Shown one piece after another: positions 15,911-45,027 of a stretch of 64,000 nucleotides of DNA (position 1 is its first letter; each line of letters starts with the position of its first letter). The stretch spans positions 1,996,134-2,060,133 of the forward strand of contig NZ_OY781884.1 of assembly GCF_963677155.1 (NCBI RefSeq), read 5' to 3'. Source of the stretch: an uncultured Draconibacterium sp. Lineage in GTDB: Bacteria > Bacteroidota > Bacteroidia > Bacteroidales > Prolixibacteraceae. The notes beneath the pieces are model-generated. The model saw only the letters and a list, made by a program, of their open reading frames with translations. It was not told where the DNA came from and did no database searches. Both the position numbers and the translations under genes were made by a program.

Positions 15911-16261
15911 CTAATTCAAGGGCTTCAGCTTAACATTTACCTTGTTTGAGAATATATCAATTGTCTTTTTTTCAATTTCGTTCTTTTCGTAAGAAATATA
16001 ACTGGCTGTAAGGTTGTATTCGCCTGGTGTAACATCTTCAAAGTAGAAATTTCCGTCGAAATCGGTATAAGCCTTTTTGTCGGTTCCTTCCAGCTTCACC
16101 TCAACCCCTACCAATAATTCGCCGGTTAATTCATCGGCTACACTTCCGGTAATCATTACGGTTGAAGGTTTATCCGCATTTGCTGGCTTGTTATCTTTAT
16201 CGTCGGCCAATCCACTGAAAAACAAACCTGTAACTAATATAAGTGTTAGAAAAATTTTCAT
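15911..16261 (-). CDS. Small exported CarboxypepD_reg-like (Ig-fold) protein
   Basis: 116 residues: signal peptide (KIFLTLILVTGLFFSGLA), a charged linker, then one carboxypeptidase regulatory-like domain (~38-113: ITGSVADELTGELLVGVEVKL, TDFDGNFYFEDVTPGEYNL, ASYISYEKNEI). The same domain forms the N-terminus of the TonB receptors in this window, but here it stands alone with nothing attached. The promoter is an 11-bp-phased TGTAA array plus a consensus -7 box, so I infer phosphate control. Own terminator follows. Function unknown. Confidence 0.8.
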   Translation of the reverse strand: MKIFLTLILVTGLFFSGLADDKDNKPANADKPSTVMITGSVADELTGELLVGVEVKLEGTDKKAYTDFDGNFYFEDVTPGEYNLTASYISYEKNEIEKKTIDIFSNKVNVKLKPLN

Positions 16262-16289
16262 TTTGTATTTCCTTAATCTCTTTAGTCGA

Positions 16290-16352
16290 CAAAACTAGCG
16301 CAGAGATTTTACACTGTAATTACACAATTATTACAAATCGATTAATCTTGCA
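16290..16352 (-). promoter_or_regulatory. Promoter with four-unit Pho box (site A)
   Basis: TTACA-type units start at 16309, 16320, 16331 (TTACACTGTAA, TTACACAATTA, TTACAAATCGA) and 16342 (TTAATC), exactly 11 bp apart. On the coding strand these read TGTAA. Then comes an 11-nt gap and TAGTTTTG (16297-16290), a full TAnnTTTG match, 28 bp before the start codon. The repeat replaces a -33 element, as expected for a PhoB-type activator. Confidence 0.7.
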
Positions 16353-16366
16353 AGCGAGCACAAAAA

Positions 16367-16394
16367 AACGTCTGACTACGAATAGTCAGACGTT
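16367..16394 (-). terminator. Terminator of the YwqK-like gene
   Basis: A perfect 12-bp stem, AACGTCTGACTA with TAGTCAGACGTT, CGAA loop, and a 7-nt T-run on the minus strand. It lies 29 bp past the stop of the gene at 16424-16888. Confidence 0.87.
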
Positions 16395-16423
16395 CTATGC
16401 AGTGTTTAATGTAACTTCAAATT

Positions 16424-16888
16424 TTAAAATTCGGAATAGTTTCTTTCGTTTACAACTACTCCCATTTCATCGTAGCTTTTCCAGGTTCCGGTTTTTTCAC
16501 CGTTGCTGTAACAAAGTTCATACTTCAAATTACCTTCATCGTCCCACACGTACCAATTGCCGTCTTTTTTGCCGTTTTTGTAAGCGGCTTTAGCAACCTT
16601 AACTCCGTCGGTGTTGAAAGTAAGCCAAATACCGTGCATTTCGTTGTTTTTGTATGCACGTACTTCGTTCAGTTCGCCTGTCTCAAAATACAGTTTACAT
16701 TCGCCATCTTTTTTCCCATCGATGAAGTTTGATACCATTTTTACATTTCCATTATCAAAATGGGTAGTGTACTCTCCTGAAAACAATTCAGAGTTCTGGT
16801 AATACAATCCATCAATTTCTTGCAGTTCCTGTGCGAACACTGTAAATGCTACAAATAAAACTCCTACTAACAATGCTAACCTTTTCAT
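16424..16888 (-). CDS. Exported MORN/YwqK-repeat protein
   Basis: 154 residues: signal peptide, then five or six repeats of the form G..Y...G..(D/H)G.W..(F/Y)...G (for example YKNGKKDGNWYVWDDEGNLK, YSNGEKTGTWKSYDEMG). These are MORN_2/YwqK-type repeats, often labelled as antitoxins but found here in an exported protein, so a binding or cell-surface role is more likely. It has an unusually strong Shine-Dalgarno for this phylum (AAAGGAGG, 16893-16900), a TAACTTTG box, and a TTACA array upstream. Confidence 0.8.
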   Translation of the reverse strand: MKRLALLVGVLFVAFTVFAQELQEIDGLYYQNSELFSGEYTTHFDNGNVKMVSNFIDGKKDGECKLYFETGELNEVRAYKNNEMHGIWLTFNTDGVKVAKAAYKNGKKDGNWYVWDDEGNLKYELCYSNGEKTGTWKSYDEMGVVVNERNYSEF

Positions 16889-16940
16889 GGTAGCCTCCTT
16901 TCTTTGTTTTAATTTGTTTTTGACGTTACTTCTATTAATA

Positions 16941-17004
16941 CAAAGTTAACATTTAATTCACATAAACTAAACACTACTGTAATTTTTTTGTAACATTTCT
17001 GTAA
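16941..17004 (-). promoter_or_regulatory. Promoter with candidate Pho box (site F)
   Basis: On the coding strand TTACA units begin at 17004, 16993 and 16982, exactly 11 bp apart (TTACAGAAATG, TTACAAAAAAA, TTACAGTAGTG). A -7 box TAACTTTG lies at 16948-16941. The units face the opposite way from sites A, D and G, and the spacing to the -7 box differs, so I am less sure than for those. Confidence 0.5.
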
Positions 17005-17040
17005 TTTTTAAGCAATCTTGATCAACAAAGTAAAGAGCAA

Positions 17041-17100
17041 AAAAAAACCCGGACTCTCATCCGGGGTTAAGGTAGGCTCTGCAACCTACCTGCCATTAAA
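17041..17100 (-). terminator. Double-hairpin terminator repeat, copy 1
   Basis: On the minus strand: a 7-bp stem (AGGTAGG/CCTACCT), then a GC stem (CCCGGA/TCCGGG with one unpaired G), then a 7-nt T-run. It follows the T9SS gene by 80 bp. Nearly identical to copy 2 at 18867-18927, differing by one missing C in the GC stem. The identity over ~60 bp, including loops, is more than terminator function needs. Confidence 0.8.
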
Positions 17101-17180
17101 ACTTTTACATAAAAAAGCGCTCGGAATAACCAACACGCAATTACCTGATTAACCACCCATTAAACAGATTGAAACGAGAA

Positions 17181-18653
17181 CTATTTTATGATCAATTTTT
17201 TCTTTAAAACAGATTCATTCTGATCAATTACTTCGAGGATATACGTAGCAGGAGCCGAGTTTTTCAGATCAATCTGGACTTTATTATCTCCTGTTACTTT
17301 TTGTTCCCATATTTCTTGACCAGCTAAATTAAAGACTCTTGCAGTATAATTGCCATTATAGCCTAACTCTAGATTAAATACACCTTCTGACGGATTTGGG
17401 TATACTAATAAGCTTTGTGACTCTTTACTACGGGGGTCAATCGAACCAGATTTAAGCAAAGAAATTGGAATAAGCCCCGATTTAAAAGAATCTTTAATAT
17501 ATATTTTTTCAGCATGAGCTTCTCGGTAGGCTCCACTTTCAACTATCACACAGAGATAAAATTCACCCATGAATCTTATATTATGACCTGACGAATAATA
17601 ATCATAAGGAATATTAATATTGACATCATAGGTATGGGAGCTACCTGTCGCAATATTAGCAAACCCACTATTAAGGACTCCTGTTGCCACCGCATTGTAT
17701 ATATAATTATCGATACTATTTTGCTGTATTTTTGTAAAGACCCAGCCGATTTTATCAAGTTTGCCAACACCTCCACTATTTTTAACAGTAACCTTAATAT
17801 TATTTACATCCGTGTTATTGTAATCAAAAGTCGGTAGTTGTGTACTTCCATCCACTACAGGTAGCTCTACATTTGTAAGACTAAAATCGGGATCACCTGT
17901 AGTCTCGCATGTATAACTAAATGTTTGAGGTGGCATATGTCCAAAATCTACTACCAAATAATACGTTATTCCATTTGTAGAAAAGCCATCGCGTGAATAA
18001 AACCAACTCGTAAACTTCTTATAATCTGGATAGTACGAATGGTCATCATAATCATGGTCAGTATTATATGGATAATAGTAGATACAATTGCTTGGAGTAA
18101 CTGAGTTTTTATAAAATCGCATATATATAGCACCATCGTTATAGTTTCCTTTTATATCAAATTCAAAATTAAATTTTGTCCCTACTGGATAATTAGTCCC
18201 AGCAGCATTAAGCACTTTAAAATTTTTTATTTCAACACTTAAATCGGAGTCACCTGTAGTCTCGCATGTATAACTAAATGTTTGAAGGGGCATATGTCCA
18301 AAATCGACTACCAAATAATACGTTATTCCATCAGTAGAAAAGCCATCGCGTGAATAAAACCAACTCGTAAACTTCTTATAATCTGGATAGTAAGAATGGT
18401 CGTCATAATCATGGTCAGTATTATATGGATAATAGTAGATACAATTGCTTGGAGTAACTGAGTTTTTATAAAATCGCATATATATAGCACCATCGTTATA
18501 GTTTCCTTTTATATCAAATTCAAAATTAAATTTTGTCCCTGCTGGATAACTCGTTCCTGCAGCATTAAGCACTTTAAAATTTTTTATTTCAATTGTTTGA
18601 GAAAATGATACAAAAGGTAATACTACTAAAACAAAGATGAATAAATTTTTCAT
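17181..18653 (-). CDS. Type IX secreted protein with two near-identical domains
   Basis: 490 residues: signal peptide (to ~18), repeat 1 (21-139), repeat 2 (140-258), a CARDB-like adhesion domain (~265-390; VTVKNSGGVGKLDKIGWVF), and a T9SS type A sorting domain (~408-490; VYPNPSEGVFNLEL, TYILEVIDQN, KKLIIK). The repeats are Tyr- and Asp-rich (YYYPYNTDHDYDDHSYYPDY) and I do not recognise them; they may bind carbohydrate or metal. Exported by the Por system and anchored on the cell surface. Followed by the double-hairpin terminator. Confidence 0.85.
   Translation of the reverse strand: MKNLFIFVLVVLPFVSFSQTIEIKNFKVLNAAGTSYPAGTKFNFEFDIKGNYNDGAIYMRFYKNSVTPSNCIYYYPYNTDHDYDDHSYYPDYKKFTSWFYSRDGFSTDGITYYLVVDFGHMPLQTFSYTCETTGDSDLSVEIKNFKVLNAAGTNYPVGTKFNFEFDIKGNYNDGAIYMRFYKNSVTPSNCIYYYPYNTDHDYDDHSYYPDYKKFTSWFYSRDGFSTNGITYYLVVDFGHMPPQTFSYTCETTGDPDFSLTNVELPVVDGSTQLPTFDYNNTDVNNIKVTVKNSGGVGKLDKIGWVFTKIQQNSIDNYIYNAVATGVLNSGFANIATGSSHTYDVNINIPYDYYSSGHNIRFMGEFYLCVIVESGAYREAHAEKIYIKDSFKSGLIPISLLKSGSIDPRSKESQSLLVYPNPSEGVFNLELGYNGNYTARVFNLAGQEIWEQKVTGDNKVQIDLKNSAPATYILEVIDQNESVLKKKLIIK
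17880..18593 (-). repeat. Tandem 357-bp in-gene duplication
   Basis: Two copies (18593-18237 and 18236-17880) encode 119-residue domains that differ at only a few residues (for example S/N, A/V, L/P). DNA identity is almost complete, so the duplication is recent or kept uniform by recombination. Likely prone to copy-number change. Confidence 0.85.
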
Positions 18654-18866
18654 GATTAGAGATTTTAATTAGTTGATCTTAAATTTCTTCAATACTAATT
18701 TACTAATTAAAACTATAGTTCGTTTTATTATCGCTTAATTTAATTATTAAGTAATCAGTATGTAATATATCTCTAATTCATGATTGTAGCATTTTTATGT
18801 AGTCTACGATTTTATATACAGGACTGAGCCTCACTATTTCTTACAGTTCTTCGGCATCGACACTAT

Positions 18867-18927
18867 AAAAAAACCCCGGACTCTCATCCGGGGTTAAGGT
18901 AGGCTCTGCAACCTACCTGCCATTAAA
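18867..18927 (-). terminator. Double-hairpin terminator repeat, copy 2
   Basis: Perfect 9-bp GC stem (AACCCCGGA with TCCGGGGTT, 6-nt loop) preceded on the minus strand by a 7-bp stem (AGGTAGG/CCTACCT), with a T-run at the end. It follows the LipL48-like gene by ~22 bp. Same sequence as copy 1 at 17041-17100. Confidence 0.85.
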
Positions 18928-18949
18928 CACTGCGTATAGCTTTTTATCT

Positions 18950-21157
18950 TTAGTTAATAACCTTTGTAGTTCCGTCGACTGTGTTTAATGCATCCGACAT
19001 CCAATCTGGTTTTGAAATGCCATTTCCGGCACCAGTTGCACTGCTGCTCTCGCCCACTGTCAATCCACTTACTGATTTAGCGTGGTCTCCAATATTTTCA
19101 AATTTACAGTTGGTTACTACTACATCTCCTGCTGCAATGCGTGCATTTGCATCTGCATCATCTGCATCTGCATAGAAATACGGATGACTTTTCCCATCAA
19201 CTAAACCTCCGATAACGATGTCATCAATATTCATTTTACCAGAACCTTCCTTTAAGTAGAAAGGTTTTTCACCCATTCCATATACAGTAAGGTGTTTCAG
19301 TGTAGCATCAGTCATAGGTGTTGCAGCACCGTTGTCGCCATTGTTTGATCCTTCAATACCTGATTTTGTAGAATTCATAGAAAACCAGTATTCACCTTTT
19401 CCAGACCAACCATCAGCAAAGTCAATACCGTCATCATCGCTTCCTACAGATACAAGGTGAAACGCATTTACTGTTCCACCGAAGAATTCAATACCATCAT
19501 CTTTTCCCATATAAGAAACAAGGTAATCAACTTCAGTACCAGAACCCACACCGAAAAATGATACGCCATTGAATTGTTTTTCCTCGGTATAATTATATCC
19601 GGTATATTCAACACGTAAATATTTAATTACACCTGAATTATCATCAGCAACATTTCCTCCATAAGAGAGACCTGATACTTCAGCTCCTGCTGATGCGTTT
19701 GATTTGTTTGTAGGTGCTTTACCACAAATTACCAAACCGCCCCAATCGCCTTTTATTTTTGTATCACATGTCATAACCACCGGAGCATCAGCCGTTCCAT
19801 TTATAAAAATTTGGCCGCCCTGAGCAACTGCGATATATGAAATCTGACCTCCTTTAGCTTCAATAACAGTTCCTGCTGGAATAGTTAAAGAACCGCCGTC
19901 TTTTACAACAAGTTTACCTAGTAATTTATAGTTGTTAGCTGCATTTAACTCAACATCATCAGAAATTTCAAAAGTCCCCGCACTACTCTTACCTAAATTA
20001 ATAGTAACGCCTTCCATTTCATCATTAAAGATAGTAGTTGATTCATCAATTTTATTTAATGCATCAGGCATCCAATCTGGTTTATTAACACCATTTCCGG
20101 CTCCTTTTGCACCTGGATTTTCAGTAAAAGTCAACCCATCAATTGACTTTGCTTGACCATCCTTTAAATCAACAAAGCTTACATTGGTAACAACTACATC
20201 GCCTGCTGCAACACGAGCATTCGCGTCAATATCATCAGAGTCAGTGTAAAAAATAGGCTGTTGTTTACTATCTACAAGACCTCCAATAACAATATTGTCG
20301 ATGTTGATATTGCCAGCACCTTCTTTTAAATAGAAAGGCTTTTCACCCATTCCATAAACAGTAATGTTTCTTAACGTTGCATTTGTCATTGGTGTAGCAG
20401 CACCGTTATCGCCATTGTTTGATCCTTCAATTCCTGATTTGGTAGAGTTTAAAGAAACCCAGTATTCACCAGTTCCCGACCATCCGTCAGCAAAGTCAAT
20501 ACCATCATCATCGCTACCGACTGAAACTAAGTGAGACGCATTAACTGTACCACCAAAAAATTCAATACCATCGTCTTTCCCGTTGTATGAAACAACATAA
20601 TCAACCTGTGTTTCAGAACCCACTCCAAAAAACGAAACCCCATTAAATTGTTTTTCTTCGGTATAATTATATCCGGTATATTCAACACGTAAATATTTAA
20701 TTACACCTGAATTATCGTTAGCAACGGTGCCTCCGTAAGAAAGCCCGGAAACCTCTGCTCCTGCTGATATATCCGATTTATTTGTTGGGGCTTTACCACA
20801 AATTACCAAACCACCCCATGATCCAGGAGTCTTCTCAGAACTGGTCATAATAACTGGTTTTTCAGCTGTACCGTTAATATAAATCTTGGCATCTTGGGCA
20901 ACAGCAATATAAGCTGTTTGTCCTCCTTTAGCTTCAATAACCGTTCCAGCAGGGATAGTTAGCGAACCACCCGCTATTACAGTAAGTGATCCTGTAAGAA
21001 CATATTTCGTGCTTGCATCTAAAGTTTGTGAATCAGAAATCTCACCTTGCAGGTTCACAGGATCTGGTCCATCAGGATCAATAGGATCATCGTCGTCGTC
21101 ACAACCAGCAAATGCTAATAGGGCAATTGCCAACATGGCTAAAATTAATTTTTTCAT
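18950..21157 (-). CDS. LipL48-like surface lipoprotein, tandemly duplicated
   Basis: 735 residues: lipoprotein signal (LLAFAGC19) followed by an acidic DDDDD stretch, a sign of outer-leaflet export in Bacteroidota. Two homologous halves (~42-385 and ~399-735) each run: GGSLTIPAGTVIEAKGGQ, WGGLVICGKAPTNKS, GVIKYLRVEYTGYNYTEE, GKDDGIEFFGGTVN, SVGSDDDGIDFADGWSG. This resembles parallel beta-helix proteins of the LipL48-like type. DNA repeat period is 1074 bp. The gene lies 24 bp after a TonB receptor, the position SusD or DUF4249 would hold, so it is probably the receptor's surface partner. A single-repeat homologue is at 28103-29410. Confidence 0.8.
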   Translation of the reverse strand: MKKLILAMLAIALLAFAGCDDDDDPIDPDGPDPVNLQGEISDSQTLDASTKYVLTGSLTVIAGGSLTIPAGTVIEAKGGQTAYIAVAQDAKIYINGTAEKPVIMTSSEKTPGSWGGLVICGKAPTNKSDISAGAEVSGLSYGGTVANDNSGVIKYLRVEYTGYNYTEEKQFNGVSFFGVGSETQVDYVVSYNGKDDGIEFFGGTVNASHLVSVGSDDDGIDFADGWSGTGEYWVSLNSTKSGIEGSNNGDNGAATPMTNATLRNITVYGMGEKPFYLKEGAGNINIDNIVIGGLVDSKQQPIFYTDSDDIDANARVAAGDVVVTNVSFVDLKDGQAKSIDGLTFTENPGAKGAGNGVNKPDWMPDALNKIDESTTIFNDEMEGVTINLGKSSAGTFEISDDVELNAANNYKLLGKLVVKDGGSLTIPAGTVIEAKGGQISYIAVAQGGQIFINGTADAPVVMTCDTKIKGDWGGLVICGKAPTNKSNASAGAEVSGLSYGGNVADDNSGVIKYLRVEYTGYNYTEEKQFNGVSFFGVGSGTEVDYLVSYMGKDDGIEFFGGTVNAFHLVSVGSDDDGIDFADGWSGKGEYWFSMNSTKSGIEGSNNGDNGAATPMTDATLKHLTVYGMGEKPFYLKEGSGKMNIDDIVIGGLVDGKSHPYFYADADDADANARIAAGDVVVTNCKFENIGDHAKSVSGLTVGESSSATGAGNGISKPDWMSDALNTVDGTTKVIN

Positions 21158-24022: not shown

Positions 24023-24090
24023 CAAAGCAAAACCTTTAATGTTACAGCAGGATTAATCCTCATTTAAACTATTATTACATTTGCTTAATC
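24023..24090 (-). promoter_or_regulatory. Promoter with Pho box (site G)
   Basis: Units start at 24042 (TTACAGCAGGA), 24053 (TTAATCCTCAT), 24064 (TTAAACTATTA) and 24075 (TTACATTTGCT), exactly 11 bp apart, with another TTAAT one base out of phase. An 11-nt gap separates them from TTGCTTTG (24030-24023), a one-mismatch -7 box. Register is the same as at site A. Confidence 0.65.
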
Positions 24091-25998: not shown

Positions 25999-26019
25999 TG
26001 ACAATTTATTGCGTTTTTG

Positions 26020-26697
26020 TTATTGAAAACAATAACCGTAACCCGATTTCCCCTTGATGTTCGATCCGTAGTCTCCGATTTTTTTACGTAACCGTGCGAT
26101 GTTAACATCCACATTTCTTTCGGTTACAATTACATCGTCTTTCCAAATTCGCTTTAGAATTTCTTCGCGACTAATGTATTGTCCCATATTTTTCATGAGT
26201 AGCGATAAAATTTCGTACTCTTTACGTGTAAGGTTTACCGGTTCACCCTCAATGGTAGTTGCCTTTTTCTTAAAATCAATTTTAAGCTCCTTATACACCA
26301 CTTTTTTCGATTCTTCGTCGGCTTTTAAACCACGTTTTAAAATGGCTTTAATTCGGGCAACAACCTCTTTAATCGAGAATGGTTTTGAAATGTAATCGTC
26401 GGCACCTACATTAAAACCGGTAAGTATGTCGTTTTCCTCCACCTTTGCAGTTAAAAATATAATGGGCACCTGCAACTTACGGTCTTTCCGGATGATGTTT
26501 GCCACTTTGTACCCCGACACACCTTCCATCATCACATCCAGCAAGATGAGCTGATATTCTTCAAGTGGCATTTCAAGTGCTTCTTCTCCCGAATTGGCAA
26601 TATCTATTGTAAACCCCTCACTTTCAAGATTAAACTGCAATATTTCGCAGAGATCTTTTTCGTCGTCAACAATTAAAACTTTTTGATTTTCTTCCAT
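26020..26697 (-). CDS. phoB: PhoB-type response regulator
   Basis: 225 residues from ATG 26697. Receiver domain with the acidic pair D11-D12, phospho-acceptor D54 (LILLDVMMEG), Thr in IIFLTAK and Lys in YISKPF; then an OmpR/PhoB winged helix with LTRKEYEILSLLM and RNVDVNIARLRKKIG. PhoB-type proteins bind 11-bp-spaced direct repeats, which is what the upstream regions of this island show. Two such arrays lie between this gene and the divergent porin, so autoregulation is likely. Confidence 0.88.
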   Translation of the reverse strand: MEENQKVLIVDDEKDLCEILQFNLESEGFTIDIANSGEEALEMPLEEYQLILLDVMMEGVSGYKVANIIRKDRKLQVPIIFLTAKVEENDILTGFNVGADDYISKPFSIKEVVARIKAILKRGLKADEESKKVVYKELKIDFKKKATTIEGEPVNLTRKEYEILSLLMKNMGQYISREEILKRIWKDDVIVTERNVDVNIARLRKKIGDYGSNIKGKSGYGYCFQ

Positions 26698-26871
26698 ATT
26701 GACCAATTTATGGGAATGATATGAATAATGGCGTATTTAAAAATATGTAGTGCTTTCTAATAAAAATGGAAAAATAGTAAAAATACTCGAATTATTAAGG
26801 AACGGTTAACCACATTAAAAAGCAATTACAACTAACATCCGAATTAATATTACCTATAAGTTATGAAGCAA

Positions 26872-31668: not shown

Positions 31669-31675
31669 TAGTTAT

Positions 31676-35203: not shown

Positions 35204-37945
35204 CTAAAAATTAAACTTCAGGCCAAAATTTACTTTAATATCGTAGAACTCGGCCTGGTAAGTGTATTGCGACTCCCCCTGATAATAACGCAACGGCGTA
35301 TTCAAAATATTGTTGAGCTCAGCAAACAACATAAAGTTTTTGTTGAAATGGTAGCTGGTATTAAAATCGAGGTACGAAACCTTATCGTAGTACACATCTT
35401 CGAAAGCTTTGTCGCTGTATTCTTCAACAAAAGCACCTGCGTAATTGTACGACACACGAGCCGATAGCTTTTTGCCTTCGTAGTACAACGATGCATTCAA
35501 GGTATTTTCTGGTGTTCCGGGCAAAGTCAGATCATCGTCGTTGCGGTCTTCAATCTGGAAATTACTCACCGTTGACTTGGTGTAGGTATAGTTGGCATAA
35601 AATCCGGTTTGGCGAAGGAAGCCCGGCAAAAAGTCGAACTGACGCTGGAAGGCCATTTCAACACCAAACAAGGTAGCATCGCCGGCATTAATAGGCTGGG
35701 TAAATTTTCCCCAGGTTTTCCCCAGATAATCGTAATCCGACTGAATTCCGTCAACAATAAAATCGTTGATGTCTTTGTAAAAAATTCCACCCGAAACCAA
35801 ACCAATAGACTCAAAATAATGTTCAGCCATTAAATCAAAGTTCCATGCTGTAGTTGGGGTAAGATCGGGATTACCAATCTCAACACGGTCTTTTTCATTA
35901 TTGATTTCAACACGCGGAACCAAGTCGATATATTTTGGGCGAGCCAGAGTATTGGTAACACTTGCTTTAATGTTGGTATTTTTATCGATCTTGTATTTTA
36001 ACAACAACGATGGTAACACCTTTGTGTAGTCGTTATCCACTTCTTTGGTATCCACAAGATCCTCAACGTCTCCTTCATCATCCAGAATCAGCTCTTTACC
36101 TGAGTAGTTAACTGAAGTGTTTTCAACCCTTACACCAGCGACTACATCCAAACGGCCAAACGACTGGTCGAAACGCAGGTAAGCGGCAGTTACATCTTCC
36201 GATGCATCAAAGTTTCCGGCAAGTTCTTCCAGGTTTACTTCGCCTTCAAAATCGTCTGAATTAAGATTTAAACCACTTAAATATTTTATATCAACAAAAG
36301 TTCCGGCCGCATAATCTCCGGCAAGGAAATCATCTTTTGTTTTAACAACTGTATTACTGAAAGCTCCGTTATTAAAACTGTCTTCATTATTTGGCGAATA
36401 ATCGTAGAAATCGTTGTTGCGTTTTTTGCTTTTACCTTTGTATTTGGCACCAAAACGCAAAACACTTGTTCCATTCTGAAAAGGAAGTTTAAAGTCGACT
36501 TTGAATTTTTTGTCGATATCTTCGGTGTACTGATGTTCTTCTGTCAATTCATCAAATTTCCAGTTGCTGTTAAAATCCTGCGCTTCCGGGGTATTAATAA
36601 TCACCTGTGGTTTTTCGGTATCTGCAAGATCCTGGCTGAACGCCACATCTTTAATCTTGTACTGTAGGTAACGTTCGTTTGGGCGGTCTTCGTTGGCCTT
36701 TGAGTACGAACCTTTCCAGTCGATTTCAAGGGCACCAAACTGGTGTTCGCCACCTAAAGAAATATGGTAAGTTCGCTGATCTTCCAAACGTGCATCTTTA
36801 TTGGTTCCGCCTTTCACCTGGCGTTCAATTTTTGCCACATCTTCATCCAAATCTTTGTAAACAACACGGTAACGGTTTTCCCAGTCGTTACGGTGGTTGT
36901 ACATTACTTTTGCCTCGATTTTGTTATTGGCATCAAATTTATAATCAAGCGCCCCCGAGTAACTCTGGCGTAAACGTTCAATCAGATAGGTACGCACCTG
37001 CATTTCTTTCATTTTTCCCTCGTCGTTCCATTCGGCTTCCAAATCATCCGATCCCATCATATGGTCCTGCACCGACCCCGCTAGTGTAACACCCAGTTTG
37101 TTGTTTAAAAACCGATCGGCGTACAACAACGAAAAGTTTGGAGCCACTTTGCCGCGAAGTGCATTGTAAGTACCGCCAACCGATCCGGTAATACGACGTG
37201 AGTAAGGATTTGATTTTGTTACAAGGTTTACCGAACCGCCAATGGCATCGGCGTCCATATCGGCGGTAACCACCTTGTTTACTTCAATGCTTTGAATCAT
37301 ATCCGAAGGAATAAGGTCGAGCTGGATGGAACGTGTTTCAGCCTCAGCCGACGGAATACGGTCGCCATCAATAGCTACCGAGTTATACTCGGGCGATGTT
37401 CCGCGAATGTTTCCAAAACGCGCTTCCCCCTGATCGTACTGTACATTGATTCCGGGAATACGTTTTAAGGCATCACCAACATTCTGGTCGGGGAAACGAC
37501 CTACCTGATCAGAAGAAATAATGTTGGTAATATTCATGCTGCTTTTTTGTTGGTTCAAAGCTTTTGATTGCCCCTGTAACGCACCGTTTACCACCACTTC
37601 TTCAATATCAATACCGGCCTGAAGTTGAAAATTAAGAGTGCTTGTTTTTCCAACAGTAACATTTATCGTTTTAACTGTTTCTTTAAATCCTATGTACGAA
37701 ACTTTTACTTTATAATCACCTGGATCAAGAGCCACAATCCGATAAAATCCGTTTACATCGGTTACAGCCCCTTTATGCAAATCTTCAATTACAATAGCCG
37801 CTCCTGGCAAAGGAAGGTTTTCAGTGTCGACAATCCTACCGGCAATGGTACCTTTATTTGCGGCATTTTCGTCTTCGCCTTCTGCCATTGCACTAAACAT
37901 ACTGACAAACAATAGAATAAATAAAAGAAGAGATAATTTTTTCAT
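35204..37945 (-). CDS. TonB-dependent receptor linked to phytase
   Basis: 913 residues: signal peptide, CarboxypepD_reg-like domain (~33-115), plug with VGDALKRIPGINVQYDQGEA, NIRGTSPEYNSVAIDGDRIP and ADAIGGSVNLVTK, then a barrel ending YDIKVNFGLKFNF. It resembles receptors of the Caulobacter-type subfamily. First gene of an operon with the phytase and a glycosyltransferase, preceded by an 11-bp Pho-box-like array (site E). Likely takes up phytate or its lower inositol phosphates. Confidence 0.9.
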   Translation of the reverse strand: MKKLSLLLFILLFVSMFSAMAEGEDENAANKGTIAGRIVDTENLPLPGAAIVIEDLHKGAVTDVNGFYRIVALDPGDYKVKVSYIGFKETVKTINVTVGKTSTLNFQLQAGIDIEEVVVNGALQGQSKALNQQKSSMNITNIISSDQVGRFPDQNVGDALKRIPGINVQYDQGEARFGNIRGTSPEYNSVAIDGDRIPSAEAETRSIQLDLIPSDMIQSIEVNKVVTADMDADAIGGSVNLVTKSNPYSRRITGSVGGTYNALRGKVAPNFSLLYADRFLNNKLGVTLAGSVQDHMMGSDDLEAEWNDEGKMKEMQVRTYLIERLRQSYSGALDYKFDANNKIEAKVMYNHRNDWENRYRVVYKDLDEDVAKIERQVKGGTNKDARLEDQRTYHISLGGEHQFGALEIDWKGSYSKANEDRPNERYLQYKIKDVAFSQDLADTEKPQVIINTPEAQDFNSNWKFDELTEEHQYTEDIDKKFKVDFKLPFQNGTSVLRFGAKYKGKSKKRNNDFYDYSPNNEDSFNNGAFSNTVVKTKDDFLAGDYAAGTFVDIKYLSGLNLNSDDFEGEVNLEELAGNFDASEDVTAAYLRFDQSFGRLDVVAGVRVENTSVNYSGKELILDDEGDVEDLVDTKEVDNDYTKVLPSLLLKYKIDKNTNIKASVTNTLARPKYIDLVPRVEINNEKDRVEIGNPDLTPTTAWNFDLMAEHYFESIGLVSGGIFYKDINDFIVDGIQSDYDYLGKTWGKFTQPINAGDATLFGVEMAFQRQFDFLPGFLRQTGFYANYTYTKSTVSNFQIEDRNDDDLTLPGTPENTLNASLYYEGKKLSARVSYNYAGAFVEEYSDKAFEDVYYDKVSYLDFNTSYHFNKNFMLFAELNNILNTPLRYYQGESQYTYQAEFYDIKVNFGLKFNF

Positions 37946-38037
37946 TTCAAATTTGGTTATTTATTTACGCAGCAAAATTGGTTATTACCTCTCTGAAAGC
38001 GGTTGCATAACAGTTAAAAGGGAATTAAAAAAAGGTA

Positions 38038-38070
38038 GTAATCGGTAATTTTTTTGTAATGGTTCTGTAA
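38038..38070 (-). promoter_or_regulatory. Candidate Pho box upstream of phytase operon (site E)
   Basis: On the minus strand TTACA/TTACC units start at 38070, 38059 and 38048 (TTACAGAACCA, TTACAAAAAAA, TTACCGATTAC), 11 bp apart, ~95-125 bp before the receptor start. A CAATTTTG at 37980-37973 is a possible weak -7 box but is not in the register of sites A, D and G. Confidence 0.5.
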
Positions 38071-38139: not shown

Positions 38140-40410
38140 TTATTTACTCTTTTCAACCGAGTAGCTTACAAAATCTCTGTGTGCTTTAATCAGATTAATT
38201 GAATGCAACAACAGGTTTTTAGTTTCGCTGTTTATGTTGAAATACAACATCGAATTACGTGTATTTACATCTTTCGTTTTAATACGTTTAATCTGGTTTT
38301 TCTCTGTCTTTTTCAGGTAATCCACAATCTCATCGCGTTTAACAATCAAATCGTCCAGTTTATCGAAAGTGTTTTCCTCTATCATTGTTAGTCCCATGCT
38401 ATAGAACTCATCGAGTTTTGCAGCCAGTTCCTGTAGCTCCTCTGCCTGATCTTTCGAGAATGGTTTATGCTGATTATCCAAATGCTCGAATAAAGGCTGG
38501 ATCAGGAAGTTTAGCGAGTGGGCAATTTCGCGCTGATAATCGACTACCTGTACATAAAAATGCCCGGTATCAACATGGTCTTCAATTTTTGAAAGCGTAT
38601 CGAATATCTTGCTCTTTATTTTTTTCGATTTTGAATTCAGCTTATCTTTCAACAAAATACTTTCCTTCAAATCAGTTCTGTTTTCCTGAAGGAAACTTTC
38701 AACTCCACCAGAAAAAGCTTTATTCGATGAAACCAATGCATTAATACAGTGCTTTTTACATTTCTGCATTACTTTTTCAACACCATCAGTTTCGTTAAAT
38801 GCCTCCTCTTCTTCTTCAATAGCTTTGTTGTTACGCTTTTTGAACAAGAATTGTGTGCGAATTACCATAAAAATAGCAATGGCTACAAATACAAAAATCA
38901 GGAATTTACCACCTACCGAAATTAACAACGCTACCAATCCGGAAACAGTGAAAGCAATTATTGCGGTTAAAAACCATCCGCCAATCACAGCAAATACTCC
39001 CGAGATACGATAAACAGCACTTTCGCGATCCCAAGCTCGATCGGATAATGAAGTTCCCATAGCCACCATAAACGTTACGTAAGTAGTAGAAAGAGGTAAG
39101 GTAAACGAAGTTGCAATGGCAATAAGGATACTGGCTGTTACCAGGTTTACCGATGCACGAATTTTATCGAAAGCAGGCGTATCAGGATCGTTTGCCGGGC
39201 CCAGAGGAACAGGTGTAAAACGGCGACTTACCGACTCGCGAACACTTGTTGGCATTGAGCGGCTAACCGATTTATTGAAGTTGATGCTACTACGTACCAT
39301 TAATCTTGCAATCAGTGACGAACCAAAGCGTTCCATTCCTTCCGACTGACGTGCCAGGTTGATCTCGGTTTTTGTTACTGCCTGCGCCTTTTTCGACATA
39401 ATAAGCGTAACTACCATTACCAGTCCCGAGATTAATAACATGTAAACCGGGGTACTGCTTTTCCCAGCCAGTTTTCCCATCGAAAAGGCTTCGGGGCTCA
39501 TACCCGATGCTACCCAGGCCTGGAACGATTTAAAACCGGCAACCGGCACTCCGATAAAGTTTACCAGGTCGTTTCCGGCAAATGCCAATGCAAGTGAGAA
39601 AGTTCCTACCAGCACAATAACTTTCAGAATGTCAATTTTAAAAACCCATTGTAACAATTGAATAATTACCGTCCACCCCACAAAACTCAACAACAACACT
39701 ATTGCTGTATTTTGTTGAATCCATTCGTATAATGTTCCACCTCCAGTTAGCTCCATATCGGCAAACGACGATCCCCGAATACCTTTAATCAGCATAAAAT
39801 AAGTAATGCCTGTAATCGCCAAACCTCCAAAAGCCGAACCGAAATATTTTAAACTTTTTCCGTATTCAAACGAAAACAGCAGACGTGTTAGGTACATCAC
39901 TATTGCCCCGACTGTAAAAGCCACAAACACCGAAAGCAAAATACCGCCGATTATAGCCAGCGCCTTTTCGGAATTTATGTAGTGGTAGAGTTCGGCAACA
40001 ACCGATCCTCCGGCTGTTTTAATTTTAACCACCGATACGGCAACCGCAGCGCCCAATAATTCAAACACAATGGAAACCGTTGTTGAAGTTGGCATTCCGA
40101 AAGTGTTAAACATGTCGAGCAGAATAATATCCGTAATCATTACAGCCAAAAATATGACCATGATTTCGGCAAAATAGAACTGATCGGGATGAAAGATCCC
40201 TTTTCGGGCTACTTCCATCATTCCGTTTGAGAAGGTTGCTCCAACCAGAATCCCCAGACTTGCCATCAAGAAGATAACCCATTTAGGTGCTGCTTTAGAG
40301 CCAATTGCAGAGTTTAAAAAGTTTACTGCGTCGTTACTTACACCAACAATTAAGTCGGAAATTGCCAAAGCAAATAGTACAACAACGAGAACCAAATAAA
40401 AATTTTCCAT
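38140..40410 (-). CDS. PiT-type phosphate permease fused to PhoU-like domain
   Basis: 756 residues. The transport half carries both PHO4 signatures, GVSNDAVNFLNSA (23-35) and AFAGNDLVNFIGVP, with ~10-12 membrane segments and LSTTYVTFMVAMGTSLSDRAWDRESAVYR in the second half; the soluble C-terminal third (~530-756) is helical and matches PhoU-like domains. It imports inorganic phosphate driven by cation gradients. A tandem paralogue lies directly upstream. Own Pho-box promoter (site D) and terminator. Confidence 0.9.
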   Translation of the reverse strand: MENFYLVLVVVLFALAISDLIVGVSNDAVNFLNSAIGSKAAPKWVIFLMASLGILVGATFSNGMMEVARKGIFHPDQFYFAEIMVIFLAVMITDIILLDMFNTFGMPTSTTVSIVFELLGAAVAVSVVKIKTAGGSVVAELYHYINSEKALAIIGGILLSVFVAFTVGAIVMYLTRLLFSFEYGKSLKYFGSAFGGLAITGITYFMLIKGIRGSSFADMELTGGGTLYEWIQQNTAIVLLLSFVGWTVIIQLLQWVFKIDILKVIVLVGTFSLALAFAGNDLVNFIGVPVAGFKSFQAWVASGMSPEAFSMGKLAGKSSTPVYMLLISGLVMVVTLIMSKKAQAVTKTEINLARQSEGMERFGSSLIARLMVRSSINFNKSVSRSMPTSVRESVSRRFTPVPLGPANDPDTPAFDKIRASVNLVTASILIAIATSFTLPLSTTYVTFMVAMGTSLSDRAWDRESAVYRISGVFAVIGGWFLTAIIAFTVSGLVALLISVGGKFLIFVFVAIAIFMVIRTQFLFKKRNNKAIEEEEEAFNETDGVEKVMQKCKKHCINALVSSNKAFSGGVESFLQENRTDLKESILLKDKLNSKSKKIKSKIFDTLSKIEDHVDTGHFYVQVVDYQREIAHSLNFLIQPLFEHLDNQHKPFSKDQAEELQELAAKLDEFYSMGLTMIEENTFDKLDDLIVKRDEIVDYLKKTEKNQIKRIKTKDVNTRNSMLYFNINSETKNLLLHSINLIKAHRDFVSYSVEKSK

Positions 40411-40488: not shown

Positions 40489-40556
40489 CAAAGTTGCTCT
40501 AATCAGGCAATTAAAATGTTACAGTTTGATTACATTTTAATTAATTTACGATTACA
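40489..40556 (-). promoter_or_regulatory. Promoter with Pho box (site D)
   Basis: Units start at 40519 (TTACAGTTTGA), 40530 (TTACATTTTAA), 40541 (TTAATTTACGA) and 40552 (TTACA), all 11 bp apart. A degenerate unit at 40508 would fill the gap to CAACTTTG (40496-40489), a one-mismatch -7 box; the distance is 22 nt, two repeat periods. This is the same register as sites A and G. It stands before the PiT gene at 38140-40410. Confidence 0.65.
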
Positions 40557-40660: not shown

Positions 40661-42934
40661 TTAATTATTCTTTTGAAGTGTATTTGTGATAAAATCACGA
40701 TATGCTTTTAACAGATTCACGGTGTGTAGTAGCAAATACTCCAGCTCCGAAATTAATTTGAAGAACAACTGCGAGTTTCGCGTATTAACCATTTTATTTT
40801 TAATACGTTTTATCTGGTTTTTCTCCATTTTATGAATCTGATCCAGAATGTCGTCGCGTTCTTCAATCAATTGTTCAAGGTCTTCAAATGTTTTACCCTC
40901 TATATCCTTCAGCACCGCTTTAAAGAACCTATCAATACGTTCTGTTACATCCTGCAATTCAACATGCTGCTCTTCAATAAATGGTTTATGGTTGTTTTCA
41001 ACATGTTTAATCATAGGCTCAAGCATAAAATGCACAGCATGTGCCATCTCGCGTTTATGCTCCATCATTTGTACATAAAAATGACTGGTATCCAATGCTC
41101 CTTCGGTAAATTTTGTAACCGTTGAATAAACCTTGTCACGGTTTTTCTTCGATTTTTTCGAGAATTTCTTACTCGCCACCTCTACCTTTTTCAGTCCTGC
41201 TCTATCCTCTTTCAGGAAACTTTCAATACCATCGGTAACAATCAGGTCACTCGATTTTACAGCATTTACCATTTGCTTCGCACTTTTCTCCAGAATCTGC
41301 TCATGCGCATCGGCTTCTTCAATCTCTTCGTCTTCTTCGGCGGCCTGCTGATCGCGCTTTTTCATCATAGCATGTGTGCGTATAACCATAAAAAGAGCAA
41401 CTATTACGAATACGAAAATCATAAACTTGCCGCTAACTGCAATAATCAGCGCTACAATACCCGAAACGGTAAAAGCAATTAATGCAGTTAAAAACCATCC
41501 TCCGATTACTGCAAAAACACCCGAAATTCGATATACTGCACTTTCGCGGTCCCAGGCACGATCAGATAACGAAGTACCCATTGCAACCATAAATGTTACG
41601 TATGTAGTTGATAATGGCAGTTTAAGTGAAGTACCTATAGCAATTAATATACTTGCAACCACCAGGTTTACCGACGCCCTAACCTTATCAAACGAAGGTG
41701 GATCCTGATCATCTTCACTAACATAAGAATGTGGTTCAAAACGCGAACTCACCCCATTGGTAACAGATGAGGGCATTACATTTGCCAGTCGTTTATTAAA
41801 CTTAGTGGTTCCCCGAACAATTACACGCGCAGCAAACGACGACCCAAAACGTTCGTCTCCTTCATTCTGACGCGATAAATCGAGCGATGTTGCAATCACC
41901 GATTTCGCCTTTTTCGACATAATCAGCGTTACAATCATTACCAATCCGGCAATTAACAACATGTATGTTGGCGTACCCACTTTACCTGCCAACATTGCCA
42001 TCGAAAAGGTATTGGGGTTAGTAGCTCCGTCGGCAATCCAGGCCTGGAACGAATTATAACCGGCCAACGGCACACCAATAAAGTTTACCAGGTCGTTTCC
42101 GGCAAAAGCCATTGCAAGCGCAAAAGTTCCGGCCAGTACTACAATCTTTAATATCTTAATATTGAAAACCCATTTTAATAACTGAATTAGAACAACCCAA
42201 AATCCGAAGCTGTATAAAAGCATTAATGCTGTGTGGTGTTTTAACCATTCCTGAATGGTCTCTCCGCTGCTTAGCTCAATACCTGCATAGGTTGAGCCCT
42301 TCATTCCTTTTATAACAATAAAATAAGTGATGGCTGTAATGGCTAAACCGCCAAAGATTGAACCAAAATATTTCATTGGCCCGCGGTATTTAAAAGTAAA
42401 CACCAGGCGGGTTAAATACTGTACAATGGCACCAACGGTAAAGGCAATAAACACCGAAAGCAATATTCCGGTAATAATAGCAAGCGCCTTACTCGAATTG
42501 ATGTATTGCGACAGTTCCATCAATACAGATCCTCCGGCTGTCTTAATCTTTACTATCGATACCGACACAGCGGCACCTAGTAATTCAAAAACGATTGAAA
42601 CCGTTGTTGATGTTGGCATCCCAAAAGTATTGAACATATCAAGCAGAATAACGTCGGTTATCATTACTGCAAGAAAAATGATCATGATCTCGGAAAAAAC
42701 AAACATGTCGGGATGAAAAATTCCTTTCCGCGCAACTTCCATCATTCCACTCGAAAAAGTAGCACCTATAAGTACTCCTAAACTAGCCATTAAAAAGATT
42801 ACCCACTTGGGCGCTGCTTTCGAACCAACTGCAGAATTAAGAAAATTTACGGCATCGTTACTTACTCCTACAATCAGGTCTGAAATTGCTAATGCAAACA
42901 GTACAATTACAAGAATCAGATAAAAGTTTTCCAT
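40661..42934 (-). CDS. Second PiT-type phosphate permease with PhoU-like domain
   Basis: 757 residues and strongly similar in sequence to the gene at 38140 over its whole length (same start MENFYLILVIVLFALAISDL, GVSNDAVNFLNSA, AFAGNDLVNFIGVPLAG, and a PhoU-like tail). A tandem duplication with most change in the C-terminal third and the central loop (~340-400). Only a weak Pho-box array lies upstream, so this copy may be the constitutive one. Confidence 0.9.
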   Translation of the reverse strand: MENFYLILVIVLFALAISDLIVGVSNDAVNFLNSAVGSKAAPKWVIFLMASLGVLIGATFSSGMMEVARKGIFHPDMFVFSEIMIIFLAVMITDVILLDMFNTFGMPTSTTVSIVFELLGAAVSVSIVKIKTAGGSVLMELSQYINSSKALAIITGILLSVFIAFTVGAIVQYLTRLVFTFKYRGPMKYFGSIFGGLAITAITYFIVIKGMKGSTYAGIELSSGETIQEWLKHHTALMLLYSFGFWVVLIQLLKWVFNIKILKIVVLAGTFALAMAFAGNDLVNFIGVPLAGYNSFQAWIADGATNPNTFSMAMLAGKVGTPTYMLLIAGLVMIVTLIMSKKAKSVIATSLDLSRQNEGDERFGSSFAARVIVRGTTKFNKRLANVMPSSVTNGVSSRFEPHSYVSEDDQDPPSFDKVRASVNLVVASILIAIGTSLKLPLSTTYVTFMVAMGTSLSDRAWDRESAVYRISGVFAVIGGWFLTALIAFTVSGIVALIIAVSGKFMIFVFVIVALFMVIRTHAMMKKRDQQAAEEDEEIEEADAHEQILEKSAKQMVNAVKSSDLIVTDGIESFLKEDRAGLKKVEVASKKFSKKSKKNRDKVYSTVTKFTEGALDTSHFYVQMMEHKREMAHAVHFMLEPMIKHVENNHKPFIEEQHVELQDVTERIDRFFKAVLKDIEGKTFEDLEQLIEERDDILDQIHKMEKNQIKRIKNKMVNTRNSQLFFKLISELEYLLLHTVNLLKAYRDFITNTLQKNN

Positions 42935-42960
42935 TTAAATTTGGTTTTTGTAAAGGTCGG

Positions 42961-43049
42961 CAAATATAAAGTTTGTCAAAATTTTAATCCTTTTGTAATA
43001 TTAATAAAATATTAACTAACCATGAAATTACCATTAACCAATTAGTAAC
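42961..43049 (-). promoter_or_regulatory. Promoter of the proximal PiT gene with weak periodic array
   Basis: Minus-strand TATATTTG (42968-42961) is a full -7 match 27 bp before the start codon. TTAAT (43001), TTAAC (43012), TTAAC (43034) and GTAAC (43045) lie on an 11-bp grid with one slot unfilled, and the grid is one base off the register of sites A, D and G. A Pho box here is possible but weak. Confidence 0.4.
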
Positions 43050-43131
43050 CACTTTTTTATACGGCATTTGAAACCTTAATTTGCAAAGTTTGATTTTTGA
43101 ATAACAAATAGTAATAACATAACAACATTAA

Positions 43132-44169
43132 ATGAGAACATACTCTTCGAAATTCCTTGCCATACTGGTTGCAATCACTTTAACCATTCTGGCTTTCGGC
43201 ATCGCACTGTTGGCGCACTACTTTGGCGAGAATATTTTGGTTATTACCATTTCTACACTGGCCTTTTTTGTAGCCGCCTACTTTTCTATTTTATACATTA
43301 TCAAGAAATACATTATCGACCGGATTCGGCCTTTGTATAACACCATTCGCGATTTGCCACTGAGCGGGAAAAAGATGGAGGAAAAAATCGACTCGAACAG
43401 TTTGCTGCTAAATGTAAAATACGAGGTTGAAGAATGGGCCAAGTCGCAATTAAAAGAAATTGAACGACTTAAAGAGCTGGAAAAATACCGCAAAGATTTT
43501 GTTGGAAACGTATCGCACGAACTAAAAACACCAATCTTTAATATCCAGGGTTATGTGCTTACGCTTTTGGAAGGCGGATTGGAAGATCCCAAGATTAATA
43601 AACTTTACCTGAAACGCACAGAAAAAAGTATCGACCGGATGGTGTCTATTGTTGAAGACCTGGAATCGATCACCAAACTGGAATCGGGAGAGCTGCAGCT
43701 AAACATGACCCGTTTTGATATTGTAAAAACCGTTGAGGAAGTAATTGAAATGGAACACTGGCAAGCATCAGAAAGCCAGATATCGGTACAAATCATTAAT
43801 AAACCCGATCGGCCTATTTTTGTACGCGCCGACAAAAAACGGATTCTCGAAGTAGTCACCAATCTTATTGTTAACGGGGTAAAATATGGCAAGCAAAACG
43901 GATATGTAAACATTTCGTTTCACGATTTAGATGATAACATAATTGTTGAAGTCGCCGATAACGGAATTGGTATCGAAAAAAAAGACCTTCGACGTATTTT
44001 TGAGCGTTTCTTCCGTGTTGATAAATCGCGTTCGCGCGAACAAGGTGGCACAGGGCTTGGACTTTCGATTGTAAAACACATTATCGAGGCTCATAATCAA
44101 TCTATTAACGTCCGAAGCGTACTTGATCAGGGAACTACATTCAATTTTACACTCGAAAAGCAAAAGTAG
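43132..44169 (+). CDS. phoR: PhoR-type histidine kinase, minimal sensor
   Basis: 345 residues. Two membrane helices (~8-28 and ~36-57) are separated by only a short loop, so there is almost no periplasmic sensor. Then a coiled linker, HisKA (NVSHELKTPIFNIQGYV, H129), and HATPase (NGVKYGKQNGYVNI, VADNGIGIEKKDLRRIF, FERFFRVDKSRSR, GGTGLGLSIVK). The plan matches PhoR proteins that sense through a transporter and PhoU rather than a ligand. A response regulator follows from its own promoter. The tandem PiT-PhoU genes are next door and divergent. Confidence 0.85.
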   Translation: MRTYSSKFLAILVAITLTILAFGIALLAHYFGENILVITISTLAFFVAAYFSILYIIKKYIIDRIRPLYNTIRDLPLSGKKMEEKIDSNSLLLNVKYEVEEWAKSQLKEIERLKELEKYRKDFVGNVSHELKTPIFNIQGYVLTLLEGGLEDPKINKLYLKRTEKSIDRMVSIVEDLESITKLESGELQLNMTRFDIVKTVEEVIEMEHWQASESQISVQIINKPDRPIFVRADKKRILEVVTNLIVNGVKYGKQNGYVNISFHDLDDNIIVEVADNGIGIEKKDLRRIFERFFRVDKSRSREQGGTGLGLSIVKHIIEAHNQSINVRSVLDQGTTFNFTLEKQK

Positions 44170-44282
44170 CCCAATCAAAACTTTCCGTAAAAAAAAACGC
44201 AAGAGTGCCGATTAATTTGTATTTTGGTTCAATTAAGCACTATTTTAGTTTTGTTTTTATTTTTTGTTTAAAGGAAAGTTAA

Positions 44283-44312
44283 TTGTTCTTTAATAAGCAG
44301 CACTTACTTTTG
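44283..44312 (+). promoter_or_regulatory. Promoter of the second response regulator
   Basis: TTG (44283-44285), 19 bp, then TACTTTTG (44305-44312), a standard Bacteroidota -33/-7 pair, 17 bp before the start codon at 44329. The regulator can thus be made apart from its kinase. Confidence 0.6.
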
Positions 44313-44328
44313 TCAAGAATTTTATGCT

Positions 44329-45027
44329 ATGAGTGAAAATCAATTTAAAGTTTTATTAGTTGATGACGAGTTGGATATCCTCGAATTTCTGAGTTACAAC
44401 CTTGAGAAAGAAGGATACGAGGTATTTACCGCCAGAAATGGTGCAGAAGCTATAAAGGTTGCAGAAAAACAGGTACCCCATCTCATTATACTCGACGTAA
44501 TGATGCCGGAAATGGATGGAATTGCTGCATGTGAGGAGCTTCGAAAAATTCCGGCATTGAGCAGCACCGTTATTGCCTTTTTAACTGCCCGCGGCGAAGA
44601 CTATTCTCAAATTGCAGGTTTTGAGGCCGGAGCTGATGATTACATCACCAAACCGGTTCGGCCAAAAGTTTTGGTTAGCCGCGTAAAAGCCTTGTTAAAA
44701 CGTACCGGCGAAGCTACTCAACCTGTTGAAGTAGTTGATACCAACACCGTAACAATTGGCAACCTGGTTATTGATAAAGAACGCTACCTTATTCGTATTG
44801 GCGATAATGAAATGATTTTGCCAAGAAAAGAATTTGAACTGCTTTCGCTTTTGGTTTCGAAACCAGGTAAAGTGTTTACCCGCGAGGAGATTTACTATTC
44901 GGTTTGGGGCGAAAACGTTGTGGTTGGCGACAGAACAATCGATGTTCATATACGTAAGCTACGCGAAAAAATTGGCAACGAGCACATCAAAACGCTCAAA
45001 GGAATTGGCTATAAATTTGTTGAATAA
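44329..45027 (+). CDS. phoB: PhoB-type response regulator, second copy
   Basis: 232 residues. Receiver with D12-D13, phospho-acceptor D56 (LIILDVMMPEMDG), Thr in AFLTARG and Lys in YITKPVRP; OmpR/PhoB winged helix with LPRKEFELLSLLVSKPGKVF, DRTIDVHIRKLREKIG and LKGIGYKFVE. Very close to the standard PhoB pattern. Probably pairs with the kinase at 43132-44169, and with the PiT-PhoU proteins as the phosphate sensor (inference). Followed by a strong terminator. Confidence 0.9.
   Translation: MSENQFKVLLVDDELDILEFLSYNLEKEGYEVFTARNGAEAIKVAEKQVPHLIILDVMMPEMDGIAACEELRKIPALSSTVIAFLTARGEDYSQIAGFEAGADDYITKPVRPKVLVSRVKALLKRTGEATQPVEVVDTNTVTIGNLVIDKERYLIRIGDNEMILPRKEFELLSLLVSKPGKVFTREEIYYSVWGENVVVGDRTIDVHIRKLREKIGNEHIKTLKGIGYKFVE

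Follow-up and report, generated by a model that had tools for sequence, protein, structure and literature searches.

The Pho box of Escherichia coli (CTGTCAT) is built of 11-nt direct repeats and precedes pst, phoBR and transporter genes; in the E. coli genome sequence, 16 nt lie between the start of a unit and the −10 element both before phoA (TGTCAC-16-TATAGT) and before phoB (TGTCAT-16-CATAAT). Here, we focus on tandem arrays of the unit TGTAAY-N5 in a phosphate island of an uncultured Draconibacterium sp. (Bacteroidota, family Prolixibacteraceae), at positions 15911 to 45027 of a stretch of 64,000 nt that is referred to below as the window. These arrays resemble the E. coli box in being 11-nt direct repeats with 6–7 conserved positions each, in their position before pst, phoBR or other phosphate genes, and in a fixed spacing to the −10/−7 element of the promoter; the island unit TGTAAT agrees with TGTCAT at five of six positions. 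They differ in having A for C in the core, in the number of units, which is often four, and in a Bacteroidota −7 box that takes the place of TATAAT. The island unit TGTAAY departs from the consensus CTGTCAT; since the consensus of Pho boxes varies between species, as passages of PMC4415409 state, this does not exclude the island arrays from the class.

PhoB has been studied in Bacteroidota before, and its recognition sequence is not given in the literature that we reached; our search yielded no defined Pho box for the phylum, which is no proof of absence, as subscription journals lay mostly outside its scope. Two described regulons come close to the island. That of Bacteroides fragilis PhoRB (Wakimoto 2013, PMC3547664) shares its phylum and, according to the passages available, comprises PhoB-dependent pst genes and a phosphate permease that depends on PhoB, with direct binding of PhoB to the pstC promoter in an electrophoretic mobility shift assay. 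The binding is mapped to a 512-bp fragment, however; the word 'consensus' is absent from the text, and those passages hold no unit sequence. The PHO regulon of Flavobacterium johnsoniae (Lidbury 2020, PMC8115612) likewise has a phoBR cluster with a TonB receptor and a lipoprotein, and a phytase with a TonB receptor. All are strongly induced by phosphate depletion, with entries in the fold-change column of the passages available of 5.76 for the phytase, 9.22 for its receptor, 8.02 for the phoBR-linked receptor and 9.91 for the lipoprotein. The term 'pho box' is absent from the text of that paper.

The arrays of the island are real and far beyond chance. Within 12 intergenic stretches of the island, same-strand pairs of TGTAA/TTACA occur eight times at a distance of 11, five times at 22 and twice at 33, and at most once at each other distance from 6 to 34. 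The earlier note on this DNA had made its proposal depend on the arrays being commoner than in shuffled intergenic DNA, which they are: the eight pairs at distance 11 compare with none in 486, one in 13 and two in 1 of 500 dinucleotide shuffles. Unit frequencies give the repeat as TGTAAY-N5, often four times in tandem. The broader four-unit pattern WKTAAY-N5, with up to two mismatches, has 13 matches in the window against a shuffle mean of 0.02, and 16 in the 5.27-Mb genome, of which 13 lie in the island (reversed pattern, 2). With at most one mismatch, all seven matches in the genome fall within the island. A triple of the exact unit, one mismatch allowed, occurs at six places in the whole genome, five of them in the island (reversed control, 3). 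Outside the island there are four array-like matches (L198–L201).

All six array positions put forward in the earlier note are present in the sequence. The spacing of exactly 11 bp that it described holds for the arrays; the 24042 and 40519 series, however, contain units that read ATTAA or TTTAA, so that exact TTACA copies there stand 33 or 22 apart. The array that it placed at 38048 is present and starts at 38044, and its list was incomplete, passing over the array at 18739–18777 and a degenerate array in register before the phytase operon (37981–38029).

Arrays stand at matching places before the same kinds of genes in 20 stretches from 14 genomes of the genus; genes in relatives are here open reading frames with blastp matches, not annotation. 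The exact triple is present in 70 of the 140 genomes of the family. With one genome (G003) left out of the family counts as a tandem-repeat artefact, the remaining 139 hold 109 matches, spread over 69 genomes; the reversed control has 18, in 12 genomes. That genome has 106 exact-triple matches on several contigs (L009, for example); those listed are 11-bp tandem repeats such as TGTAACTCATC, some of them in facing pairs, and look like a dispersed repeat.

Association with phoB extends through the family. A PhoB-like match is found in 140 of 140 genomes and is above the cut-off in 120. Among 96 merged arrays, 53 have phoB on the same contig, 38 have it on other contigs and 5 belong to genomes with no phoB above the cut-off; where the contig is shared, the distance is at most 10 kb in 45 of the 53 and at most 40 kb in 50. 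Many genomes carry an array 4.7–6.6 kb before phoB on the same strand, and in one (L052) the array, whose start lies 87 bp upstream, precedes an operon of porin-like gene, pstS, pstC, pstA, pstB, phoU, phoB and phoR. Merging identical 60-base contexts leaves 90 distinct arrays (7 of them inside a frame and classed by their neighbours): gene-facing ones number 75, a further 13 have only a gene from which they point away, and 2 have neither. The gene that follows is the porin-like first gene of a pst operon in 26 of the 75, PiT phosphate permease in 8, the small exported protein CpdReg116 in 7, PhoB in 5, a TonB receptor in 5, pstS in 4 and some other matched gene in 3, with 17 unmatched. Ten of the 17 unmatched proteins were compared with Pfam and comprise four phosphate-selective Porin_O_P proteins, two PiT permeases, one glycosidase and three without a match.

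The arrays also keep a register to the promoter. Of the 75 gene-facing arrays, 46 have a −7 box of the form nWnnTTTG that begins exactly 16 nt after the first base of the last unit, and 6 have one that begins at 27 nt; every other offset is represented five times or fewer, and 2000 rounds of shuffling never yielded more than 5 at any one offset. The 13 arrays that point away have no such box at 16 and one at 27. As neighbouring genomes share ancestry, we also took one array per 70% cluster, and 27 of 46 then have the box at 16. Among the 29 gene-facing arrays that lack an exact box at this offset, a few carry a box that ends in A for G, and in three cases another array follows.

In the window, the single register that the earlier note had proposed for three series was borne out: the last TGTAA is followed by 11 nt and TAGTTTTG in the 16309 series, by 11 nt and TTGCTTTG in the 24042 series and by 22 nt and CAACTTTG in the 40519 series, the latter two boxes each differing from TAnnTTTG by one base. 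A promoter score that sums the −7 box and units in register is highest for PiT1, the highest-scoring Pho box of the window (41.6), followed by CpdReg116 (36.6; 27.4 in a shifted reading), the 930-aa TonB receptor (30.8), the phytase operon (27.3) and the second regulator (24.6), and the best of 20 shuffled windows scores 20.0. The unit matrix was entered by hand from unit frequencies that include the window's own arrays, softened for ATTAA and TTTAA; the −7 matrix, unlike it, left out both the window and the relatives nearest to it. The phytase promoter of the three relatives examined has units at 49 and 38 that fit the pattern and TGCAAY at 27. The CpdReg116 array is kept in three other genera (L225, L227, L228), where the proteins are 46–49% identical.

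From the statistics of the arrays, their confinement to the island in this genome, their recurrence beside phosphate genes and phoB throughout the family and their fixed register, we infer that the gene-facing TGTAAY-N5 arrays are very probably Pho boxes: predicted sites through which the island PhoB (26020–26706) would activate transcription from the −7 box. Under phosphate limitation, PhoR would phosphorylate PhoB, which would then occupy three or four 11-bp half-sites along a single face of the double helix. Bound at the unit closest to the gene, PhoB would be positioned to recruit RNA polymerase at the −7 box, which starts 16 nt (or, with one more unit, 27 nt) from where the last unit begins, and would replace the upstream promoter element. 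The predicted targets in the window are CpdReg116, the TonB receptor–lipoprotein pair and PiT1, and, by way of a degenerate box, the operon of TonB receptor, phytase and glycosyltransferase.

Of the regulon drawn by the earlier note, membership is supported for a TonB receptor, for a PiT permease, for the phytase operon and for the small exported protein at 15911–16261, but not for the porin-like gene and the MORN-repeat gene, whose arrays are inverted and out of register. The 38044 array, which it had assigned to the phytase operon, proved to be inverted and distal to that operon, which has another box in register. The features of the island are outlined in table 1, in which PhoB and PhoR are called by curated NCBIfam models made for Bacteroidota; the matches to these models, like the T9SS and GldM genes of the organism, agree with its place in that phylum.

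Table 1. Genes, arrays and −7 boxes of the phosphate island (positions of the window).
Position	Strand	Feature	Evidence or remark
15911–16261	−	CpdReg116, small exported protein, 116 aa, CarbopepD_reg_2 domain	Pfam PF13715, 8.7e-16
16290–16297	−	CpdReg116 −7 box TAGTTTTG	16 nt from start of last unit
16308–16346	−	Forward Pho box (predicted) before CpdReg116, 4 units	ATTAAT, TGTAAT, TGTAAT, TGTAAA
16424–16888	−	Exported MORN_2 repeat protein, 154 aa	PF07661, 2.7e-15
16978–17016	+	Array inverted relative to MORN gene	Exact triple 16978–17004; kept in three relatives
17181–18653	−	T9SS-sorted secreted protein, 490 aa	PF18962
18739–18777	+	4-unit array (1 mismatch), inverted relative to 17181–18653	
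18950–21157	−	Lipoprotein-like protein with internal repeats, downstream of TonB receptor	Likened by position only to F. johnsoniae 'FII' in passages of PMC8115612
21182–23974	−	TonB-dependent receptor, 930 aa	
24041–24079	−	Forward Pho box (predicted) before 930-aa TonB receptor	TGTAAT, TTTAAA, ATTAAT, TGTAAC; −7 box TTGCTTTG at 24023–24030
24235–26004	−	PhoR sensor kinase	NF053855, 649 bits, cut-off 500
26020–26706	−	PhoB response regulator	NF053854, 324.8 bits, cut-off 270
26871–26909	−	Array with units facing phoB	phoB side lacks −7 box in register
26925–26963	−	Second array, inverted relative to porin-like gene	Abuts its −7 box TATATTTG (26967–26974)
27000–28091	+	Porin-like protein, 363 aa	Porin by look of sequence; no Pfam or NCBIfam match; resembles first gene of relatives' pst operons
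28103–29410	+	Lipoprotein-like protein, 435 aa	No Pfam or NCBIfam match
33002–33976	−	Glycosyltransferase, probable end of phytase operon	PF13528
33995–35110	−	Phytase	PF02333, 1.5e-96
35204–37945	−	TonB-dependent receptor, 913 aa, first gene of phytase operon	
37981–38029	−	Degenerate forward Pho box (predicted), phytase operon	TTTAAT, TTTAAC, TGCAAC at 49, 38, 27; −7 box CAATTTTG at 37973–37980
38044–38070	+	3-unit array, inverted and distal to phytase operon	Kept in two relatives
38140–40410	−	PiT phosphate permease 1 (PiT1), C-terminal PhoU-fold domain (predicted), residues 530–756	PF01384; AlphaFold model against PhoU structures
40518–40556	−	Forward Pho box (predicted) before PiT1	TGTAAT, ATTAAT, TGTAAT, TGTAAC; −7 box CAACTTTG at 40489–40496, offset 27
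40661–42934	−	PiT phosphate permease 2 (PiT2); C-terminal part aligns with that of PiT1, 44% identical	PF01384; alignment
42983–42999	+	Two-unit inverted element before PiT2	−7 box TATATTTG at offset 20
43132–44169	+	Second histidine kinase	
44267–44294	+	TTTAAY-type units before second regulator	TTTAAA, GTTAAT, TTTAAT; 16 nt before −7 box TACTTTTG (44305–44312)
44329–45027	+	Second OmpR-family response regulator, not PhoB by NCBIfam	NF053854, 218.7 bits, cut-off 270

Besides these features, two nearly identical terminator-like stretches flank the gene at 17181–18653, at 17040–17100 and about 18870–18930, with hairpins around CCGGACTCTCATCCGG and GGTAGGCTCTGCAACCTACC.

The arrays might instead be bound by the second OmpR-family regulator (44329–45027), or by both regulators, with the island answering some other signal, such as the state of the cell envelope. 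OmpR-family regulators in general bind repeats of this kind, this one is encoded in the island, and its own gene is preceded by a TTTAAY array that keeps to the register; that box (44267–44312) is kept in L044, L046 and L051 and perhaps serves autoregulation. The earlier note had counted two PhoB-type regulators in the region, but only 26020–26706 passes the PhoB model; the second protein falls below its cut-off and differs from PhoB at key positions of the recognition helix, which disfavours a sharing of the TGTAAY boxes between the two. The island PhoB keeps R193, R201 and R203 of E. coli PhoB and has N for H198 and A for R200, these five being residues that contact DNA. Moreover, the box of the second regulator is TTTAAY, not TGTAAY, and it is phoB and pst that TGTAAY arrays accompany in relatives. 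We consider this explanation very improbable. There is next to no chance that the arrays are a mobile or tandem-repeat element devoid of a regulatory role: the 11-bp tandem repeats of G003 speak for such an element, but spacers vary between arrays and loci, most sites lie 30–250 bp before gene starts and the −7 register is fixed.

The inverted arrays raise a different possibility, namely that they are repressor sites and that orientation sets the sign of regulation, PhoB shutting PiT2 and the porin-like operon as it switches on PiT1. In the window and in one relative (L043), the porin −7 box TATATTTG is preceded by inverted units at distances of 9, 20 and 42 nt; for PiT2, such units lie 20 and 31 nt ahead of the −7 box in the window and in two relatives, and a third relative has the unit at 31 alone. 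Low phosphate lowers one porin O and one Na/Pi transporter of B. fragilis in a way that depends on PhoB, which makes repression possible, and the porin of the F. johnsoniae phoBR cluster is not induced (−1.3, not significant), as given in passages of PMC3547664 and PMC8115612, respectively. Another B. fragilis porin O, however, rises with low phosphate and falls in the mutant (passages of PMC3547664), and the related porin-like gene of pst-bearing relatives has a forward array in register. PiT2, moreover, has two units only, which are missing in two of the ten sequences compared (L056 and L057), and inverted-only arrays make up 13 of 90 in the family, near the chance level of the reversed control. 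Repression of this kind would thus be a tentative reading, and a rather unlikely one.

Several observations weigh against activation by PhoB as a full account of the arrays. Eleven of the 58 arrays before matched genes have no box at 16 or 27. Four arrays facing phoB lack a −7 box in register, and in the four contexts examined the arrays between phoB and the porin-like gene were rejected as phoB drivers for this lack. The MORN array of the window is inverted, and activation leaves the inverted arrays at the porin-like, MORN and 17181 genes and at the 38044 site unexplained. A diverged pst operon elsewhere in the window genome, and a 587-codon gene with a PhoU domain, have no three- or four-unit array. 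The measured phosphate response is that of F. johnsoniae, and 19 of the 20 genomes searched in its genus lack the exact triple. The 16-nt geometry, finally, is not specific to PhoB: nine TTTAAY loci of other families (L186–L194) show it, five exactly and four with a box that is one base off, and the neighbours tested there are non-phosphate genes.

The last two points bear on how far the box extends. The exact TGTAA triple occurs in 1 of the 20 Flavobacterium genomes searched (F. johnsoniae itself is outside the 20). In seven Flavobacterium genomes, the phytase-receptor promoter has conserved AT-rich blocks and no TGTAA array; a search for PhoB in seven Flavobacterium genomes at an E-value of 1e-40 gave no match, the threshold being too strict for this to be informative. 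Of 395 genomes of the phylum, 70 contain the four-unit pattern when up to one mismatch is allowed, mostly as TTTAAY. With the window genome excluded, the listed matches number 95 by hand count, against about 67 for the reversed control, so many of them may be chance. The earlier note's description of the boxes as of a Bacteroidota type therefore does not hold at the level of the phylum.

The TTTAAY arrays have T for G at position 2 and invite comparison with PmrA/QseB-type sites, which read TTAA-N6-TTAA and are likewise 11-bp direct repeats. Among 20 TTTAAY loci of the phylum, a −7 box stands at 16 in nine (L186–L194); judged by eye, it is exact in five and one base off in four. The arrays adjoin efflux, sulfate-permease and other genes: nine neighbouring proteins compared with Pfam comprise three sulfate permeases, an HlyD, an outer-membrane efflux, a universal stress, a glycosyltransferase-HAD and a TetR protein and one without a match. 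As none of the nine belongs to a phosphate family, TTTAAY arrays were rejected as the Pho box of other Bacteroidota families. Those at L186–L194, which adjoin sulfate permease, HlyD, outer-membrane efflux, Usp and glycosyltransferase genes, are probably sites of other OmpR-family regulators. Their shared register beside non-phosphate genes indicates that the 16-nt geometry is, it seems, common to other OmpR-family regulators in the phylum, and that it is the TGTAAY unit that marks PhoB in this family. One conserved TTTAAY site recurs in eleven genomes of another genus (L175–L185) with no −7 box in register; the adjoining gene points away from the array and is of the TetR family in L175, the only one checked.

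The PiT permeases of the island bear on phosphate sensing. The last 227 residues of PiT1 (38140–38823) are predicted to adopt a PhoU fold: the model, built from a 15-sequence alignment (pLDDT 87), has two three-helix bundles, and the corresponding part of PiT2 (40661–41347) is assigned by alignment. In a Foldseek comparison with the PiT1 domain, ranks 2–7 are PhoU or PhoU-like and rank 1 (1sum) is titled a hypothetical protein, with TM scores of 0.58–0.75 and E-values of 2.7e-4 to 4.7e-3; over the first eight matches the TM scores span 0.57–0.75. Pfam PhoU (PF01895) is not reported for either PiT. A Pfam search of the genome found no stand-alone PhoU, the only PhoU matches being in the 587-codon frame, and the diverged pst operon has no recognisable phoU.

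PstB is above the cut-off in 21 of 37 genomes of the genus, and two PhoB lineages are seen. One is of the window type (L043, L045, L048, L056, L057), with a PhoB 80–97% identical to that of the window and no PstB match; the other is linked to pst (L052, L055, L058–L062), with a PhoB 66–68% identical. By alignment, pst-bearing relatives have the same PiT domain, and the fusion of PiT with PhoU would therefore be older than the loss of pst. It is conceivable, if unlikely, that the island is a self-contained phosphate switch without the usual PhoB-linked Pst–PhoU, in which PiT1 is both a target of PhoB and the sensor that restrains PhoR, the loss of the phoB-linked pst operon in this branch of the genus having moved sensing from an ABC transporter to the permease fusion. 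Genomes of the genus without a phoB-linked pst operon offer a way to study phosphate sensing by PhoR where Pst and PhoU are lacking.

For the family, the 90 array sites define the unit, its copy number and its distance to the promoter, and targets of PhoB thereby become predictable from sequence, including an exported protein without an assigned role. The 16-nt spacing is common to E. coli and to a phylum whose promoter is very different, which suggests that the geometry of PhoB-type activation predates the promoter sequences with which it works.

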